Assembly: GCA_019749875.1 (NCBI GenBank)
Contig: JAIEPK010000152.1
Coordinates: forward strand, 1-39,658
Direction of reading: 5' to 3'
Length of the DNA stretch: 39,658 nt
From: Candidatus Binatia bacterium
GTDB lineage: Bacteria; Desulfobacterota; Binatia; UBA12015
Each line of letters starts with the position of its first letter. Positions within the stretch are counted from its first letter, which is position 1. Below are positions 1,054 through 6,624 of this stretch, piece by piece. A model generated the notes under the pieces. The model was not told the DNA's origin, did no database searches, and worked only from the letters and a program-made list of their open reading frames with translations. A program made the position numbers and the translations under genes.

Positions 1054-1076
1054 GGTGATAATATACTTGCGTAACC
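1054..1076 (+). repeat. Left terminal inverted repeat
   Basis: It starts GGTGATAATATACTTG and ends TAACC. It differs from the right end only at positions 17-18 (CG against GT). The AT-rich GATAATATAC core is the only AT-rich stretch ahead of the transposase and may also supply its -10 element; that is inference. Confidence 0.93.
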
Positions 1077-1101
1077 CCGCGGACTCGGCTACTGTCTCTC
1101 C

Positions 1102-2103
1102 ATGCCGAGGAAGAACCAGCGGACGACGGCCGAACCGATCAGCCTTCAGGAGGCCATTCGGTTCTTCTCCGACGAGGATCGCGCGCACGACTACCTGCTA
1201 GAGCGCCGCTGGCCAGACGCCGAGGTTCGCTGCCCGACGTGCGGCAGCAGCGCCGTGCACTACCTCGCGAAGTACCGCCGCTGGAAGTGCGCGAGCGACC
1301 ACGCGCAGCGCCAGTTCTCGATCAAGGTCGGCACGATCATGGAAGGCAGCCCGCTCCCGCTGGGCAAGTGGCTCGCCGCGATGTGGATGGCCGCGAACTG
1401 CAAGAACGGCGTCAGCAGCTACGAGGTGCACCGCGCGCTCGACATCACACAGAAGAGTGCTTGGTTCATGCTCCAGCGCATCCGCCTCGCGATGCAGGCT
1501 GCCGGAAGCGGCGACGGCAAGTTCGACGGTCACGTTGAGGTCGACGAGACGTTCATCGGCGGCAAGGCGCGCTTCATGCACGCCCACAAGCGCGCCGAGA
1601 AGATCAAGGGCCGTGGCCCGATGGGCAAGGTCGCCGTCATGGGCCTGCTCTCGCGCCACGGCAAGGACGGACACAGCGTCGTCCGCACGACGGTCGTCAA
1701 GGACCGACGCAAGGCCACGCTTCAGCACGAGGTGCGCGCGAACGTCGAGACGGGCTCGTTCGTCTACTCGGATGAGCTGCTGTCGTACCAGGGCCTCGAC
1801 GGCGAGTACGTGCACAACGTCATTAATCACGCCGAGACCTACGTGCGCGGAAACGTGCACACCAACGGCATGGAGAACTTCTGGTCGCTCCTGAAGCGCG
1901 GCATCCGCGGCACGTACGTGAGCGTGGAGCCATTTCACCTCTTCCGCTACCTCGACGAGCAGGCGTTTCGGTTCAACCTGCGCAAGGACAAGGAAGGCGA
2001 CCGCGGGCGCTTCAAGGCGCTGCTCGGTCACGTCGCCGGCAAGCGACTCACCTACCGCACGTTGATCGGGGACGGGCACTCAGCAACCCTCGCGATGGCG
2101 TGA
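1102..2103 (+). CDS. IS1595-family DDE transposase
   Basis: 333 residues, about the usual family length. An N-terminal zinc ribbon is visible (Cys44, Cys47 in CPTCGSS; Cys63 in RRWKC). A helical region with IMEGSPLPLGKW and DITQKSAWFMLQRIR follows. The ISXO2-type catalytic domain has acidic residues Asp148 (VEVDETFIGG), Asp224 (VYSDELLSY) and Glu258 (NGMENFWSLLKRG). These are the standard signatures of IS1595/ISXO2 transposases, which cut and paste using the terminal repeats. The frame is intact and starts at ATG 48 bp inside the left end. It should be able to mobilise the whole element together with its cargo. Confidence 0.96.
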   Translation: MPRKNQRTTAEPISLQEAIRFFSDEDRAHDYLLERRWPDAEVRCPTCGSSAVHYLAKYRRWKCASDHAQRQFSIKVGTIMEGSPLPLGKWLAAMWMAANCKNGVSSYEVHRALDITQKSAWFMLQRIRLAMQAAGSGDGKFDGHVEVDETFIGGKARFMHAHKRAEKIKGRGPMGKVAVMGLLSRHGKDGHSVVRTTVVKDRRKATLQHEVRANVETGSFVYSDELLSYQGLDGEYVHNVINHAETYVRGNVHTNGMENFWSLLKRGIRGTYVSVEPFHLFRYLDEQAFRFNLRKDKEGDRGRFKALLGHVAGKRLTYRTLIGDGHSATLAMA

Positions 2104-2165
2104 AGCGGGAGCGGCGCGGCAAGCGGCGCCAGGGCCGATCCTAAAGCGCAACCCCTAACCAGCCG

Positions 2166-2606
2166 ATGGAGTTTGCCGTGACGCCCAAGCAGGTCGAACG
2201 TCTAGACGAAGCGCCCGCGTATCATGCCGAGATCGGCGTTGATCTTCCGCTTGACCGCTGGATCGGTTTTGCGGTCAAGGTGCTGCGCGACGCGGGAATA
2301 GAGACCTACGAGTCGTGCGAGGGGGGGAAGGGTCACGCCTTCCCAGAGCCGACAATCCGGTTTCACGGCACGAGTACGACCGGCTTTCATGCATTCAACA
2401 TCGCAATGGAGCACGCGTTGCCGGTGTATGCGGTTCGTCGCGCATGGTCTGTGACCGACGGCGAGCTGACTGGGCCGAACTGGGAGATGGTCTTTCATCC
2501 GCGCCGCACGCTGGTGCGGCGGCAGCAGCAGGCCGAGCGCGCTGGGTTGATGGGAGCGCCGCCGAAGCGACGCCCCCATCGGGTTATTGGTCAGCCCAGT
2601 CGCTGA
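2166..2606 (+). CDS. Small phage-type hypothetical protein (transposon passenger)
   Basis: 146 residues, 62 bp downstream of the transposase on the same strand. The core reads GIETYESCEGGKGHAFPEP, TIRFHG, then AMEHALPVYAVRRAW and GPNWEMVF, a compact alpha/beta pattern. I have seen similar uncharacterised proteins in prophages and other mobile DNA, but no function is known to me. No signal peptide or membrane segment is visible. The single Cys and conserved-looking Glu, Gly and His in the SCEGGxGH stretch could form a small functional site. The RBS is weak, and an in-frame GTG at 2178 is an alternative start. The last 16 bp overlap tail-to-tail with the 51-residue gene on the other strand. Confidence 0.75.
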   Translation: MEFAVTPKQVERLDEAPAYHAEIGVDLPLDRWIGFAVKVLRDAGIETYESCEGGKGHAFPEPTIRFHGTSTTGFHAFNIAMEHALPVYAVRRAWSVTDGELTGPNWEMVFHPRRTLVRRQQQAERAGLMGAPPKRRPHRVIGQPSR

Positions 2607-2746
2607 CAGTGCTCACACTTCCGGCGGCCACCGGTCCCCTGTCGCTTGTAGTAGGACTCGATGTTGTTGCCTTCGGTGCAGGCCGTGTCGTCGTGGTAGA
2701 CGGGCCGATCCGTCGCCTTGACGGAGTGCCAGGGATAGATTTTCAT
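2591..2746 (-). CDS. 51-residue zinc-ribbon-like protein (transposon passenger)
   Basis: ATG at 2746 is preceded on this strand by AGGACAGAACGGAA. The product is 51 residues: PVYHDDTACTEGNNIESYY in the middle and GGRRKCEHC near the end. His18, Cys23, Cys44 and Cys47 could bind one zinc ion. Very small proteins with the pattern Cys-x-x-Gly-Asn-Asn-Ile ... Gly-x-Gly-Gly-x-x-x-Cys-x-x-Cys are common in phages and integrative elements. Function is unknown; DNA or RNA binding is a guess. It is the distal member of the leftward-reading cargo genes and lies about 340 bp beyond the stop of the preceding one. Confidence 0.7.
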   Translation of the reverse strand: MKIYPWHSVKATDRPVYHDDTACTEGNNIESYYKRQGTGGRRKCEHCQRLG

Positions 2747-2771
2747 TTCCGTTCTGTCCTAACAGTTGAAG

Positions 2772-3073
2772 GCGCCCGCGGGCGCAATTGAAGAATTCGC
2801 ACTCGTTGCCGTCGCGTCTCGCCCGCTCGTGGCGTGAGCCCTGAAGCCCGCGCCACGAGCGCGACGGAGACCTAGATCATGGTGAAGCTCGGTCGTACCG
2901 CATGCGGGTCGCTCGCTTTCCCAAGACGTACGGAGCCTGCGCGTACGTCTTGACAGGGGCGCCCCTGGATGGGCTAGATACGAGGTAGTAGGGCCTCGGT
3001 GATCTAGTTCAGGCGCCGATCGCTTTCGGGAAGCCGGGCCGTGACGGTGGTCAGACCGTTGCGAGCCCGGCTT
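2772..3073. repeat. Cluster of six inverted repeats in the transposon's 339-bp gene-free tract
   Basis: Between the small zinc-ribbon gene and the winged-helix gene no further ORF is convincing, but the DNA is packed with dyads. They are: a 14-bp palindrome at 2772-2785; a two-part stem of 7 bp (2809-2815 with 2861-2867) and 10 bp (2825-2834 with 2851-2860); a perfect 11-bp stem at 2922-2932 with 2942-2952; a 12-bp palindrome AGGGGCGCCCCT at 2955-2966; a 6-bp outer stem at 2974-2979 with 3002-3007 that contains an inner CGAGG/CCTCG stem; and a 9-bp stem at 3031-3039 with 3065-3073. Possible roles are a structured RNA, tandem terminators or protein-binding sites. Confidence 0.75.
3031..3073 (-). 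terminator. Possible terminator of the leftward cargo operon
   Basis: A 9-bp stem AAGCCGGGC/GCCCGGCTT encloses a smaller ACGGT/ACCGT stem. It lies 12 bp past the stop of the winged-helix gene. No run of T follows, so factor-independent activity is uncertain. Confidence 0.45.
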
Positions 3074-3085
3074 TCTGCGTCTGCT

Positions 3086-3604
3086 TTATGTCATGGTACG
3101 TGCCCAGACTCCGTCATCCGAACGGGTCACTTTGCCGGCCTGCTTGAGTCCAACAAGGCCAAAGTGGACGACGCGCCCCGGCATCTTGTCGTCGAAGGAG
3201 TAGCCTCGCCTCCTGGCGTAGTGAACGATCTCGCCAAGGGTCATACCCCGCGTGCCCTCTAGCGCATCTAGGATGATGTCGCTGAGCGACTGCGGCTCGT
3301 CGTGCGGGGCGTGCTCTGCGCGGAACTCAAGAGCTAACGGCAGCGTGGCGCCGTTCGATGCAGTCGCGCTGCTGGCCTTGATCTCGATCAAGATCAGCCG
3401 CTTCAGAGCCTCCTCCTTTTCTGCCAGCACTGAGATGGCCGCCTCGTGGGCCTTGCGCTCTGTGCGCGTCTGGTCGAGCTGCTTCTCCAGCACCACTACG
3501 AAGTCGGTGCGGTTCTCAATGTCGTGCGCCACGCCGGCACTAAAGCGCTCTTCCCCCACTCTTGTCAAGACAGTGAGGAAAGTGGCCACGCACTGCGCCA
3601 CCAC
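3086..3604 (-). CDS. Coiled-coil plus winged-helix DNA-binding-like protein (transposon passenger)
   Basis: 172 residues. The middle (about 35-75) is rich in heptad-like charged and hydrophobic residues (LEKQLDQTRTERKAHEAA) and probably forms a coiled coil. The C-terminus (about 105-165) reads SLSDIILDALEGTRGMTLGEI ... GYSFDDK ... HFGLVGLKQAGKV ... DDGVW. This is the helix-turn-helix-wing pattern of small winged-helix domains in mobile elements. A stop lies 15 bp upstream in frame, so the start must be GTG at 3604 or the adjacent GTG. It may regulate the element's own genes; this is inferred from fold only. It is third in the leftward operon after the 133- and 64-residue genes. Confidence 0.7.
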   Translation of the reverse strand: MVAQCVATFLTVLTRVGEERFSAGVAHDIENRTDFVVVLEKQLDQTRTERKAHEAAISVLAEKEEALKRLILIEIKASSATASNGATLPLALEFRAEHAPHDEPQSLSDIILDALEGTRGMTLGEIVHYARRRGYSFDDKMPGRVVHFGLVGLKQAGKVTRSDDGVWARTMT

Positions 3605-3690
3605 TTGCCAAAGCTTCGCTCAAATCGGTCGATCGCCCTACTCGTAGCGAGGTGCAGGCTGACGAGCAAGCCGGGGCCGCAGTGGGTCGC

Positions 3691-3885
3691 CTACTGTGCC
3701 CGGCGTGTCGTCCGGGACTTCACGGGGGGCTTAGCTTGACGTTGCTTGTCCAGCGCTTCCCGCGGCACCGCCAGCACGCCTCGCACGACCTGATCGAACT
3801 TCCTCGCGGCGTCTTGGCCTTCGTGGAAGTGGTCGGGCTCGATCCTACCTGAAGCTGCGCGCACTGAGTCGGCGGGTTTTGGCAT
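3691..3885 (-). CDS. 64-residue small protein (transposon passenger)
   Basis: Starts at ATG 3885, ten bases after the stop of the 133-residue gene on the same strand, so it is probably co-transcribed and perhaps translationally coupled. The centre reads AARKFDQVVRGVLAVPREAL, followed by a basic tail (KSRTTRRAQ). Short proteins with a KFDxxVRxVLxVPKxxL pattern are very common in prophages and integrative elements and lack a known function. A GTG 42 bp upstream could extend it but would run into the preceding gene. Confidence 0.65.
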   Translation of the reverse strand: MPKPADSVRAASGRIEPDHFHEGQDAARKFDQVVRGVLAVPREALDKQRQAKPPVKSRTTRRAQ

Positions 3886-3895
3886 GGGTGAGAGC

Positions 3896-4297
3896 CTACC
3901 ACTGCCGATGTGCGCTGTTAACCGCACCGCTCTGGGGCTCGTACCAGCCGTCTGGGTATCGCCCGAGGACTAGCCCGAACAGCTCTTCACGAGGGAGTTG
4001 TCCGCGGCGCACCCGCCACATGCCTAGGACGGCGCGCGATCCGAACGAGCAGACTCCGATCCACAGGAGCCCGAAGCCCATCAGCGCACCGGTGTAAAGC
4101 AGACCGCCCGACTGGTCGCGGATGGGCACGCACATGCACGGATCGAGTTTGAACCACTCGTACAGGACATGTCCGGTGATGAACCAGAGCGGCGACGAGA
4201 GGCCGATCCCGGCGAGGAACGCGAAGGTGAGCGTCTGGCGATGCTCGGCGCGCAGATCGCGGAAGCGCAGGGCGTTGCGCCAAACCTGCGTGATCAT
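3896..4297 (-). CDS. Two-helix membrane protein (transposon passenger)
   Basis: 133 residues with two long hydrophobic stretches, about 22-46 (TLTFAFLAGIGLSSPLWFI) and 64-94 (GGLLYTGALMGFGLLWIGVC). A short loop with Cys54 and Cys56 separates them, and the C-terminal tail is polar. No signal peptide is visible. ATG 4297 has GGTGG five bases upstream on this strand. It is the first gene of the leftward cargo operon, starting about 106 bp inside the right end of the element. I do not recognise a family. Confidence 0.65.
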   Translation of the reverse strand: MITQVWRNALRFRDLRAEHRQTLTFAFLAGIGLSSPLWFITGHVLYEWFKLDPCMCVPIRDQSGGLLYTGALMGFGLLWIGVCSFGSRAVLGMWRVRRGQLPREELFGLVLGRYPDGWYEPQSGAVNSAHRQW

Positions 4298-4380
4298 GAT
4301 CCACCGGTACGGTCACGGCGGAGGTCACTCAAGGGCGTCGCATTGATCGCGAGGCTATAGCGACCGCCTACTTGACTCTG

Positions 4381-4403
4381 GGTTAACCAAGTATATTATC
4401 ACC
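4381..4403 (-). repeat. Right terminal inverted repeat
   Basis: Read on the complementary strand it starts GGTGATAATATACTTG and ends TAACC, matching the left end at 21 of 23 positions. The outer end is at base 4403. Confidence 0.93.
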
Positions 4404-4411
4404 AAAAGGAA
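4404..4411. repeat. Right target-site duplication (AAAAGGAA)
   Basis: Exact copy of 1046-1053, immediately outside the right terminal inverted repeat. Confidence 0.93.
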
Positions 4412-4465
4412 CGCGCGACGGCGCGCGTGCGGTGGACCCGGGTCGGGCGAGGACGCGCGCGTCCG

Positions 4466-5983
4466 CTAGCGCACGATCTCGCGCAACGCGATGCAGGCGA
4501 GGTTCGCGAACATCTGTACGACCGGCAGGTCCGCCCGCGTCACCGGCGGCGTACCGGTCCGCATCGCGACGATCACCCCCACGGCCTTCGAGCGCACGAC
4601 CAGCGGCTGCACGATGAACGAGCTCGCGGCGATGCGCGGCACCGGTGCGCCCGGCGGCACCAGCATCATCGTCGTCCCGCGCTCGACCACGCGCGGCGTC
4701 GCATCGAGGACGACCTCCGCGATCAGCCCGGCCCCGCGACGGAGCGGGGCGGCGACACGACCGCCCTCGCGCTCGAGGTCGGTTCCGTAGCAGAAGCGCG
4801 CGACGACCTGCTCGCGTCCCTTCGCCACCAGGCCGAGCACCACCACGTCGAAGCCGCCGCTGCGTGCGATCCCCTCGACGACGGCCGTCAAGTTATGGTT
4901 GACGTCGCCGTCGTCGAGGATCGCTCCCGTCACCTCGACCGCGACGTCGACCGCGAGGACCGGGTCGCCGCGGCGCTCTGCCGGCAGCACTGCCGGTGCG
5001 GTCCCGGCCGGCAGTGCGACCGTCTCGTCCGCCGTGTGCGCCTGCGGCACCTGCACCATGACGCCGCCGGCCGGCGACACGCTCATCGGCCGGCGGTCGC
5101 GTGACGGCAGCAGGCCGAGCATGCGCGTGTGCGCAGGCATCTCCTCGTCCACCGCGTCGAGCGCATCGGCAAGACGCTGCGGCGACAGCTCGAGCTCGGC
5201 TTCGAGGCGCTCGATGCGCGTGCCGTCGATCGGCACGCCGAGCTCCCTCGCCCGCGTGTGCAGGTCCGCCAGCTCGACCACCGCGGAGAGCTGCTCGGCG
5301 AGCGTGCCGTGCACGGTGCGCAGGTCGCCCGTGCGCCGCTGGAAGTGGTGGACGTACGTGTCGGGCAGGCTCCAGTGACGCAGCACCTCGGTCGCGACGC
5401 GGTCCGGGGACACCCCCGCGACCGCCGTCACCGCCTCCTCGAGCGTATGGCTCCCCTCGCGCTCGAGCGTCAGCGCACGCAGCAGCACGTCCGGATAGAA
5501 CGCCGCCACCCAGAGCAAGCCGAGATTCGCGAACAGGCCGAGCAGGTACGCCTGCTCCGGCGGAACGCTGCCCACGCGCGTGGCGATCGCCTGCGCGGTG
5601 AGCGCGCAGCGCAGCGCGCGGCGCAGATTGTCGTGCACGACCTGATCGTTGGGCTTGCCGCGCGTCAGGTGCTGGATGAGCAGCAGGCCGGTCGCGATCT
5701 CGCGCACGCGCTCGAAGCCGATCAGCACGATGGCGCGCGTGATGGTCGACACCGCTTCGCCGCGCGCGCCGTAGGCGACCGAGTTCACCACGCGCAGGAT
5801 CTTCGCCGACAACCCCGGATCCTGCAGGATCGCGTGCGCGAGGCCGAGCGTGCTGCAGTGCTCCTTGCTCAGCAGGTGGTTCAGGCGCTCGATCGCCTGT
5901 GGGTTGGCACCGAGATCGCCCTGCTCGCGGATCTCCTCGAGGATCCGTGGGGCGCGTTCACCGTGCGCGGCCTGTGGTTGCAT
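4466..5983 (-). CDS. HDOD-domain signalling protein with C-terminal GAF-like domain
   Basis: 505 residues from ATG 5983, chosen because AGGAGAT stands six bases upstream; the frame extends 45 codons further but with poor composition. Residues about 25-215 form an HDOD domain: LAHAILQDPGLSAKILRVVNS, TITRAIVLIGFERVREIA, AYLLGLFANLGLLW. In active HD hydrolases the last segment would carry His-Asp, but here it is Ala-Asn, as in most HDOD proteins, which are non-catalytic scaffolds. The region from about 385 to the end resembles a GAF sensor (AGLIAEVVLDATPRVV ... FIVQPLVVRSKAVGVIVA). HDOD proteins usually link signalling inputs to motility, second messengers or competence. The gene stands alone beside the transposon's right end. 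Confidence 0.85.
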   Translation of the reverse strand: MQPQAAHGERAPRILEEIREQGDLGANPQAIERLNHLLSKEHCSTLGLAHAILQDPGLSAKILRVVNSVAYGARGEAVSTITRAIVLIGFERVREIATGLLLIQHLTRGKPNDQVVHDNLRRALRCALTAQAIATRVGSVPPEQAYLLGLFANLGLLWVAAFYPDVLLRALTLEREGSHTLEEAVTAVAGVSPDRVATEVLRHWSLPDTYVHHFQRRTGDLRTVHGTLAEQLSAVVELADLHTRARELGVPIDGTRIERLEAELELSPQRLADALDAVDEEMPAHTRMLGLLPSRDRRPMSVSPAGGVMVQVPQAHTADETVALPAGTAPAVLPAERRGDPVLAVDVAVEVTGAILDDGDVNHNLTAVVEGIARSGGFDVVVLGLVAKGREQVVARFCYGTDLEREGGRVAAPLRRGAGLIAEVVLDATPRVVERGTTMMLVPPGAPVPRIAASSFIVQPLVVRSKAVGVIVAMRTGTPPVTRADLPVVQMFANLACIALREIVR

Positions 5984-6180: not shown

Positions 6181-6624
6181 ATGCGCTTCATGATCCTGAT
6201 CCGCGCGACGGCAGAGACCGAATCGGGCGCCATTCCCGACCCCGAGATGTTCACGGCCATGAGCCGCTACAACGAGGAGCTGGTGCAGGCAGGCGTCATG
6301 CTGAACGGCGACGGCCTGCACCCGAGCGCACGCGGGGCGCGCGTCCGCTTCTCGGGCGACTCGCGCACGGTGGTCCCTGGCCCGTTCCCCACCGGGGAGA
6401 TGATCGCCGGCTTCTGGATCTGGCGCTGCGACTCGCTCGCCGACGCGATCGCCTGGGTGGAGCGCTGCCCGAACCCGACGCACGGCGAGAGCGAGATCGA
6501 GATCCGCCAGCTGTTCGACGCCGAGGACTTCGGCGATGCCGTTCCCGAGGACGTCCGCGCGGCGGAGGCGCGCATGCGGGAGGAGATCACGGCACGCGAG
6601 GCGAAGCGTGGCGGCGCGTCCTGA
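6181..6624 (+). CDS. YCII-related (DGPF-type) protein
   Basis: 147 residues beginning MRFMILIRATAETESG, with MFTAMSRYNEELVQAGVML, then VPGPFPTGEMIAGFWIWRCDSLADAIAWVERCP. This is the ferredoxin-like YCII/PhnB-DGPF fold often found beside ECF sigma factors. Its enzymatic role is unknown. The RBS CGGAGGAACGAAG precedes the ATG. It is first in a run of overlapping genes leading into the DNA ligase, so it may be co-transcribed with repair functions. The usual ECF sigma partner is not present here. Confidence 0.85.
   Translation: MRFMILIRATAETESGAIPDPEMFTAMSRYNEELVQAGVMLNGDGLHPSARGARVRFSGDSRTVVPGPFPTGEMIAGFWIWRCDSLADAIAWVERCPNPTHGESEIEIRQLFDAEDFGDAVPEDVRAAEARMREEITAREAKRGGAS

Follow-up and report, generated by a model that had tools for sequence, protein, structure and literature searches.

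Positions 1054 to 4403 of contig JAIEPK010000152.1 from Candidatus Binatia bacterium (assembly GCA_019749875.1; the whole stretch analyzed, 39,658 nucleotides, is called the window here) are a complete transposon of the IS1595 family of insertion sequences (IS) that carries passenger genes, a type known as a transporter IS (tIS). One of its genes encodes a 64-residue protein, p64, whose family shows linkage to this clade of transposases and to no type of cargo, with conservation over long distances. As a whole, the account that we consider very probable is of a passenger transposon that inserted after its host species had split from a sequenced sister species and that combines a p64 partner with a passenger set.

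Element boundaries, transposase, and insertion site

Two exact copies of AAAAGGAA, read directly from the sequence, flank the 3,350-bp element at 1046 to 1053 and 4404 to 4411. Its terminal inverted repeats lie at 1054 to 1077 on the plus strand (GGTGATAATATACTTGCGTAACCC) and at 4380 to 4403 on the minus strand (GGTGATAATATACTTGGTTAACCC on that strand); they match at 22 of 24 positions, and the initial 16 positions are identical. A preliminary description of this DNA, made from its letters alone, had recorded the same repeat one base shorter (21 of 23), together with the exact 8-bp duplication, and both readings stand. This is the sole pair of 24-nucleotide arms (at least 22 matches) between identical 8-mers in the scanned first 9 kb of the window, and no comparable pair appeared in 20 shuffles of that region in which dinucleotide blocks were permuted. 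The window is an entire contig of the host draft genome (7.78 Mb), which has no second copy of these ends. The G+C content is 63.8% in the element and 70.8% in the remainder of the window.

Immediately inside the left end, the plus strand encodes a 333-residue IS1595-family transposase (1102 to 2103) that matched PF12762 (E value, 1.4e-39; 136 bits against a cutoff of 27), NF033547 (6.5e-53; 179.8 bits, cutoff 75), and the N-terminal zinc ribbon PF12760 (1.6e-9; 38 bits, cutoff 25.4). The zinc ribbon is intact, with C44, C47, and C63 invariant or nearly so in an alignment of 56 transposases, across which the catalytic residues D148, D224, and E258 are invariant and K265 is present in 98%. The element is probably autonomous. 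Five further open reading frames (ORFs) lie within the ends that they share with the transposase, the arrangement by which a tIS is recognized, and their positions and strands are those previously reported. A second IS1595 transposase, 36% identical to that of the window, is encoded elsewhere in the host genome (contig C674, 6199 to 7134).

An empty site supports past movement of the element. In contig C83 of a genome of the same genus (G001), the genes that flank the element in the window, that for an amidase on the left (88% DNA identity) and that for an HDOD/GAF protein on the right (77%), adjoin across a short spacer, with neither the element nor any of its cargo. The spacer has diverged and a single literal AAAAGGAA is not visible in it, yet the empty site is clear. 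IS1595 transposases bind the element ends, make a staggered cut, and join the element to an A/T-rich target, which gives rise to the 8-bp repeat. The element would thus have inserted between the amidase and HDOD/GAF genes after the host species separated from the sequenced sister species.

Related elements were collected by searching relatives for the transposase and excising the surrounding DNA; a locus was counted as a complete element when an exact 8-bp duplication and 16-bp inverted ends with no more than four mismatches surrounded the transposase. An exact-pattern scan of genome contigs returned mostly A/T-rich chance matches, and only loci that also had an IS1595 transposase were kept from it. 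This yielded 36 complete elements of 1.6 to 4.3 kb, the window's included. The end consensus of the window's clade is GGnnATwATATACTTGACTnACC, and elements that differ in cargo but have 8-bp duplications and the same or similar ends are common both in the class and in Acidobacteria. Three of the four elements from labeled Acidobacteria (L046, L121, and L127, the fourth being L086) carry, at each end, exactly the first 16 bases of the present element. Of the two findings that the preliminary description had named as refuting it, the cargo at this locus in relatives without the transposase and ends was not seen in the same-genus genome, and a lack of other copies with matching ends is contradicted by these elements. 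With its ends, duplication, and intact transposase, such matching ends elsewhere, and the empty site, the earlier identification of a complete IS1595-family transposon is confirmed.

None of the 36 elements is of the size of a bare IS, and all have room for passengers. Recurring families excepted, the cargo is unlike in each. DUF3800 proteins were found in five sister elements, two of them slightly under the curated cutoff, and Pfam also named GmrSD, AIPR, HNH, PIN_10 with DUF433, SocA/Panacea (SocA-like), HTH_3, and HARE-HTH proteins; sister-element cargo is thus rich in defense-like or toxin-antitoxin-like genes. One sister element (L170, 4436 to 6606) also holds a tRNA-Pro (cgg) gene at 6210 to 6283, adjoining the HARE-HTH protein gene.

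A small protein family linked to the transposase clade

The p64 gene (3691 to 3885, minus strand) encodes a small basic protein. The family was traced from a pairwise match to one sister element (L026; E value, 0.002), through a motif shared by seven elements, to a profile hidden Markov model. When the profile was built without the window's member, p64 ranked first among the window's 586 ORFs (E value, 1.5e-6; next, 0.068). Family members have about 43 to 75 residues and are rich in lysine and arginine, with a variable N terminus, a helix of the pattern F..F...mr.ll.VPK.E, and a basic tail. They are present in 24 of the 36 complete elements (E value, <0.01), with a weak 25th, and the complete elements that lack them are those with more distant transposases (34 to 40% identity). 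When all close-clade loci were considered, with complete ends or not, a p64 gene lay no more than 1.6 kb from the transposase in 31 of 36, and nothing else in these loci matched the profile; the five loci without the gene include two at contig ends (L037 and L182) and one with a truncated transposase (L050).

The association held in wider searches. The first, seven-member profile found 31 matches in 148 genomes of the class, of which 28 have an IS1595 transposase or a remnant of one no more than 2.5 kb away, a proximity for which we estimate a chance expectation of about 0.2% from transposase density. Among 247 genomes of the phylum, the sole match outside the class (G243) adjoins a transposase. 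Ten genomes reached through the pattern-scan loci, all but one labeled Acidobacteria, gave 26 matches, of which 16 lie beside a transposase and 4 share their contig with a PF12762 match at most about 4 kb away; 5 of the remaining 6 are near contig ends, and 1 is unexplained. Two p64-like ORFs near parA/parB-like genes and without a transposase (L210, about position 1500; L211, 3201 to 3395) may be chance matches. Non-autonomous elements were considered around the p64 genes lacking a transposase and were rejected: no ends were found there, and four of these genes had a transposase within about 4 kb. None of 25 family members had a nameable match in Pfam or NCBIfam, nor did the window's p64 match any PHROG. 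The p64 protein represents an apparently undescribed family of small proteins that has no entry in Pfam, NCBIfam, or PHROGs.

The place of the p64 gene varies. It stands directly behind the transposase gene on the same strand in some elements (L026, L028, and L032), on the opposite strand downstream of a cargo gene in others (L086, L127, and L169), and on the far side of the cargo in a third group (L027, L033, and the window). The transposase clade almost always travels with one small lysine- and arginine-rich protein of this family while most other cargo is exchanged. Because its presence follows the transposase rather than a particular cargo gene, p64 most likely works on behalf of the transposon; if one family goes with an entire clade of transposases in more than one phylum, it is probably a functional component of the element. 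We give somewhat less than even weight to p64 being a transposition accessory or regulator, with either DNA or the transposase as its binding partner.

Several observations weigh against this account of p64 or of the element as a whole. Three of the 31 matches in the class have no transposase nearby, one of which adjoins an ORF that looks by eye like DUF3800, a common cargo type, and two of which are near parA/parB-like genes; one Acidobacteria match likewise lacks a neighboring transposase. The AlphaFold2 model of p64, computed from eight sequences, is of modest confidence (predicted local distance difference test [pLDDT] score, 65.6) and little informative, with two short helices at residues 20 to 38 and 42 to 51. 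The p64 gene is often the downstream gene of a cargo set (the window, L027, L033, L086, and L127), which suits a cargo-linked role too. For the cargo itself, PADLOC-DB held no match to any cargo protein of this element at E values up to 1.

That gene order underlies the main alternative, in which p64 belongs to the cargo and is not a transposition factor; it might, for instance, be a general antitoxin or immunity factor that holds in check whichever toxic or defense gene is carried. The p64 gene often has the orientation of the cargo genes and lies immediately downstream of them, with an overlap at the 3' end in L127 and L169, and at L259 (953 to 1650) a p64-type ORF directly follows a PIN-like ORF near a contig end, with no transposase found, where an antitoxin-like role would fit. 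However, p64 stays while the cargo families vary from element to element (DUF3800, GmrSD, AIPR, HNH, and membrane proteins), and in many elements (L026, L028, L030, and L032) its place is immediately after the transposase gene, in the same orientation, with the cargo convergent. We therefore regard a cargo role as possible but the less likely of the two. A second alternative is a passenger transposon of the ordinary kind, in which vertical descent of the element has kept p64 and the other small genes as neutral hitchhikers. IS1595-family elements with passenger genes have long been known (PMC5704250 and PMC11891212), and their cargo is generally variable. Yet the p64 motif is retained although the members are merely about 15 to 35% identical to one another and occur in more than one phylum, which argues that p64 is under selection, and since both its place and its strand with respect to the transposase change between elements, it is more than the inert tail of one ancestral element. 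Neutral carriage is accordingly improbable.

A role in serving the transposon may be general while the proteins differ between clades, a hypothesis suggested by small-ORF clustering in elements with more distant transposases. In the position equivalent to that of p64, a family of the pattern YQPTKAEKEE...PE.(V/L)..LTRPV occurred at five loci (L035, L185, L193, L201, and L205), TPE.VARALL...PK at three (L191, L194, and L196), GDWK.AMKKALKKK.PDAGWPK at three (L036, L203, and L220), and a CxxC protein (KKIIHFFCRPCAEYHLKTHPHYRAMKRR) at four (L198, L200, L202, and L204), while alphaproteobacterial plasmid copies (L224 to L227) carry F.EAARELxxDxD...F...L..IA. Those representatives that were compared with Pfam gave no credible match. 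A single superfamily uniting the small proteins of different IS1595 clades was considered, found no support in profile comparison, and was dropped, and we treat them as separate families. It is conceivable, if rather doubtful, that IS1595-type transposons are generally three-layered, with a transposase, a lineage-specific small basic cofactor (p64 here and at least four or five unrelated families elsewhere), and exchangeable defense or toxin-antitoxin cargo, and that together they form a widespread unrecognized vehicle for small defense modules.

Passenger genes and a structured intergenic block

The preliminary description had treated the five passenger genes as one module. They do not form one: p64 is the fixed partner of a transposase clade, and two of the other genes are a separate recurring pair. 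These two, c146 (146 residues; 2166 to 2606, plus strand) and zn51 (a putative zinc-binding microprotein of 51 residues; 2591 to 2746, minus strand), are convergent neighbors, and relatives of both occur in the same convergent order at three other loci. At L220 the pair lies in an IS1595 element of 5.7 kb that has perfectly matching 16-bp ends and a GAGCAATT duplication and that also carries an HNH gene and what looks by eye like a gene for a DNA methyltransferase; at L222 it is beside an ORF that looks by eye like an IS1-like transposase (3565 to 4512); and at L227, on a Mesorhizobium plasmid, a transposase remnant is 3 kb away. This recurrence indicates that c146 and zn51 are a traveling two-gene module. 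Relatives of zn51 without c146 were found at L305, beside another IS1-like transposase ORF (1726 to 2592, by eye), and at L307, so that the IS1 and IS1595 families apparently have cargo in common. All five zn51 relatives are 43 to 59% identical to the window's protein, which had no Pfam match. A more distant relative of zn51 (36%) is encoded in the host genome itself (contig C576, 19037 to 19189), with no transposase near it in the stretch examined. A phage origin of c146, which had earlier been called phage-type, was rejected: none of 50,697 phage records matched the protein, nor did any PHROG.

The remaining two genes are on the minus strand and had no close relatives in the sets searched. 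One encodes a 172-residue protein (3086 to 3604) with a predicted long coiled coil and a C-terminal winged helix. Its AlphaFold2 model has a mean pLDDT of 75.6 yet was good in one of five models; Foldseek related it to H1/forkhead-type winged helices with a probability of 1.00 (best E value, 0.0096), and its match to DUF5817_CT (0.0045) is below the cutoff. Weak relatives occur in two genomes of the class, and the architecture resembles that of the HARE-HTH cargo of L170. The other, the first gene of the leftward set, encodes a 133-residue protein (3896 to 4297) for which two hydrophobic helices were read from hydrophobic stretches of the translated ORF; it had no family match in the libraries searched.

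As described earlier, the cargo is not a resistance set. The further suggestion that it could be a defense, regulation, or maintenance module gains by analogy, because sister cargo is of such types (DUF3800, GmrSD, AIPR, HNH, PIN, SocA-like, and HTH proteins), but no cargo protein here matched a defense family, and an annotated anti-phage defense system was ruled out by the lack of a PADLOC match. Our best guess, a tentative one by association, is that the cargo other than p64 could be a passenger set of defense, toxin-antitoxin, or regulatory type, which would be made up of the mobile c146/zn51 pair, the membrane protein, and the coiled-coil winged-helix protein.

Between the zn51 gene and that for the 172-residue protein lies a block of 321 nucleotides (2760 to 3080) with strong predicted secondary structure on both strands, folding above 100 shuffles with z scores of −5.0 (plus) and −4.4 (minus). 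The predicted fold is multibranched and closed by a GGCGCC stem. Matches to promoter and terminator consensus sequences were not above those in shuffles. On the strength of the predicted fold, the block is a candidate noncoding RNA or transfer origin. That the element is mobilizable in trans between cells, with the block as its transfer origin or a regulatory RNA, would accord with this structure and with MTnSag1 and tISCpe8, IS1595-type elements that are mobilizable and have 8-bp repeats and ends of 25 bp (PMC5704250), but is very unlikely, as the element has no relaxase gene and the block had no Rfam match and no homolog in 143 genomes of the class, in plasmids, or in other elements.

Comparison with known systems

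A constant small partner makes this transposase clade worth the attention of specialists. Small ORFs behind transposases are usually dropped in annotation. If p64 does serve the transposon, a single small gene would offer a simple handle on the carriage, by IS1595-type elements, of cargo that far exceeds the transposase gene in length. The recurring GmrSD, AIPR, DUF3800, PIN, and toxin-antitoxin-like passengers suggest that small defense modules spread by way of these short transposons, and reading the DNA between IS1595 ends would help to uncover further ones.

IS1595-family elements with passenger genes are a known kind, named tIS or transporter IS (Siguier et al. 2009, as cited in PMC5704250 and PMC11891212), and A/T-rich 8-bp repeats also occur in ISApl4 (PMC12561309). 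Neither the constant small partner nor the defense-rich cargo was found described in the libraries and open papers searched, a provisional result, as Siguier et al. 2009 may mention such ORFs. The IS1-like elements at L222 and L305 share with the window the c146/zn51 pair or zn51 alone but have a transposase of another family, by eye, and no p64. MTnSag1 (tISSag10) and tISCpe8 have an IS1595-family transposase, 8-bp repeats, and passenger genes in common with our element; they differ in that they are described as mobilizable and tISCpe8 as a lincomycin resistance element, whereas the window element has no resistance gene. With tIS elements in general it shares a transposase with a zinc ribbon and an ISXO2-type DDE domain, ends of about 24 bp that start with GG, an A/T-rich 8-bp target duplication, and passenger genes that are not required for transposition. 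On every feature testable here the element belongs to the known tIS kind, from which it is set apart by cargo that is neither for resistance nor for metabolism and by the constant small protein family of its clade.

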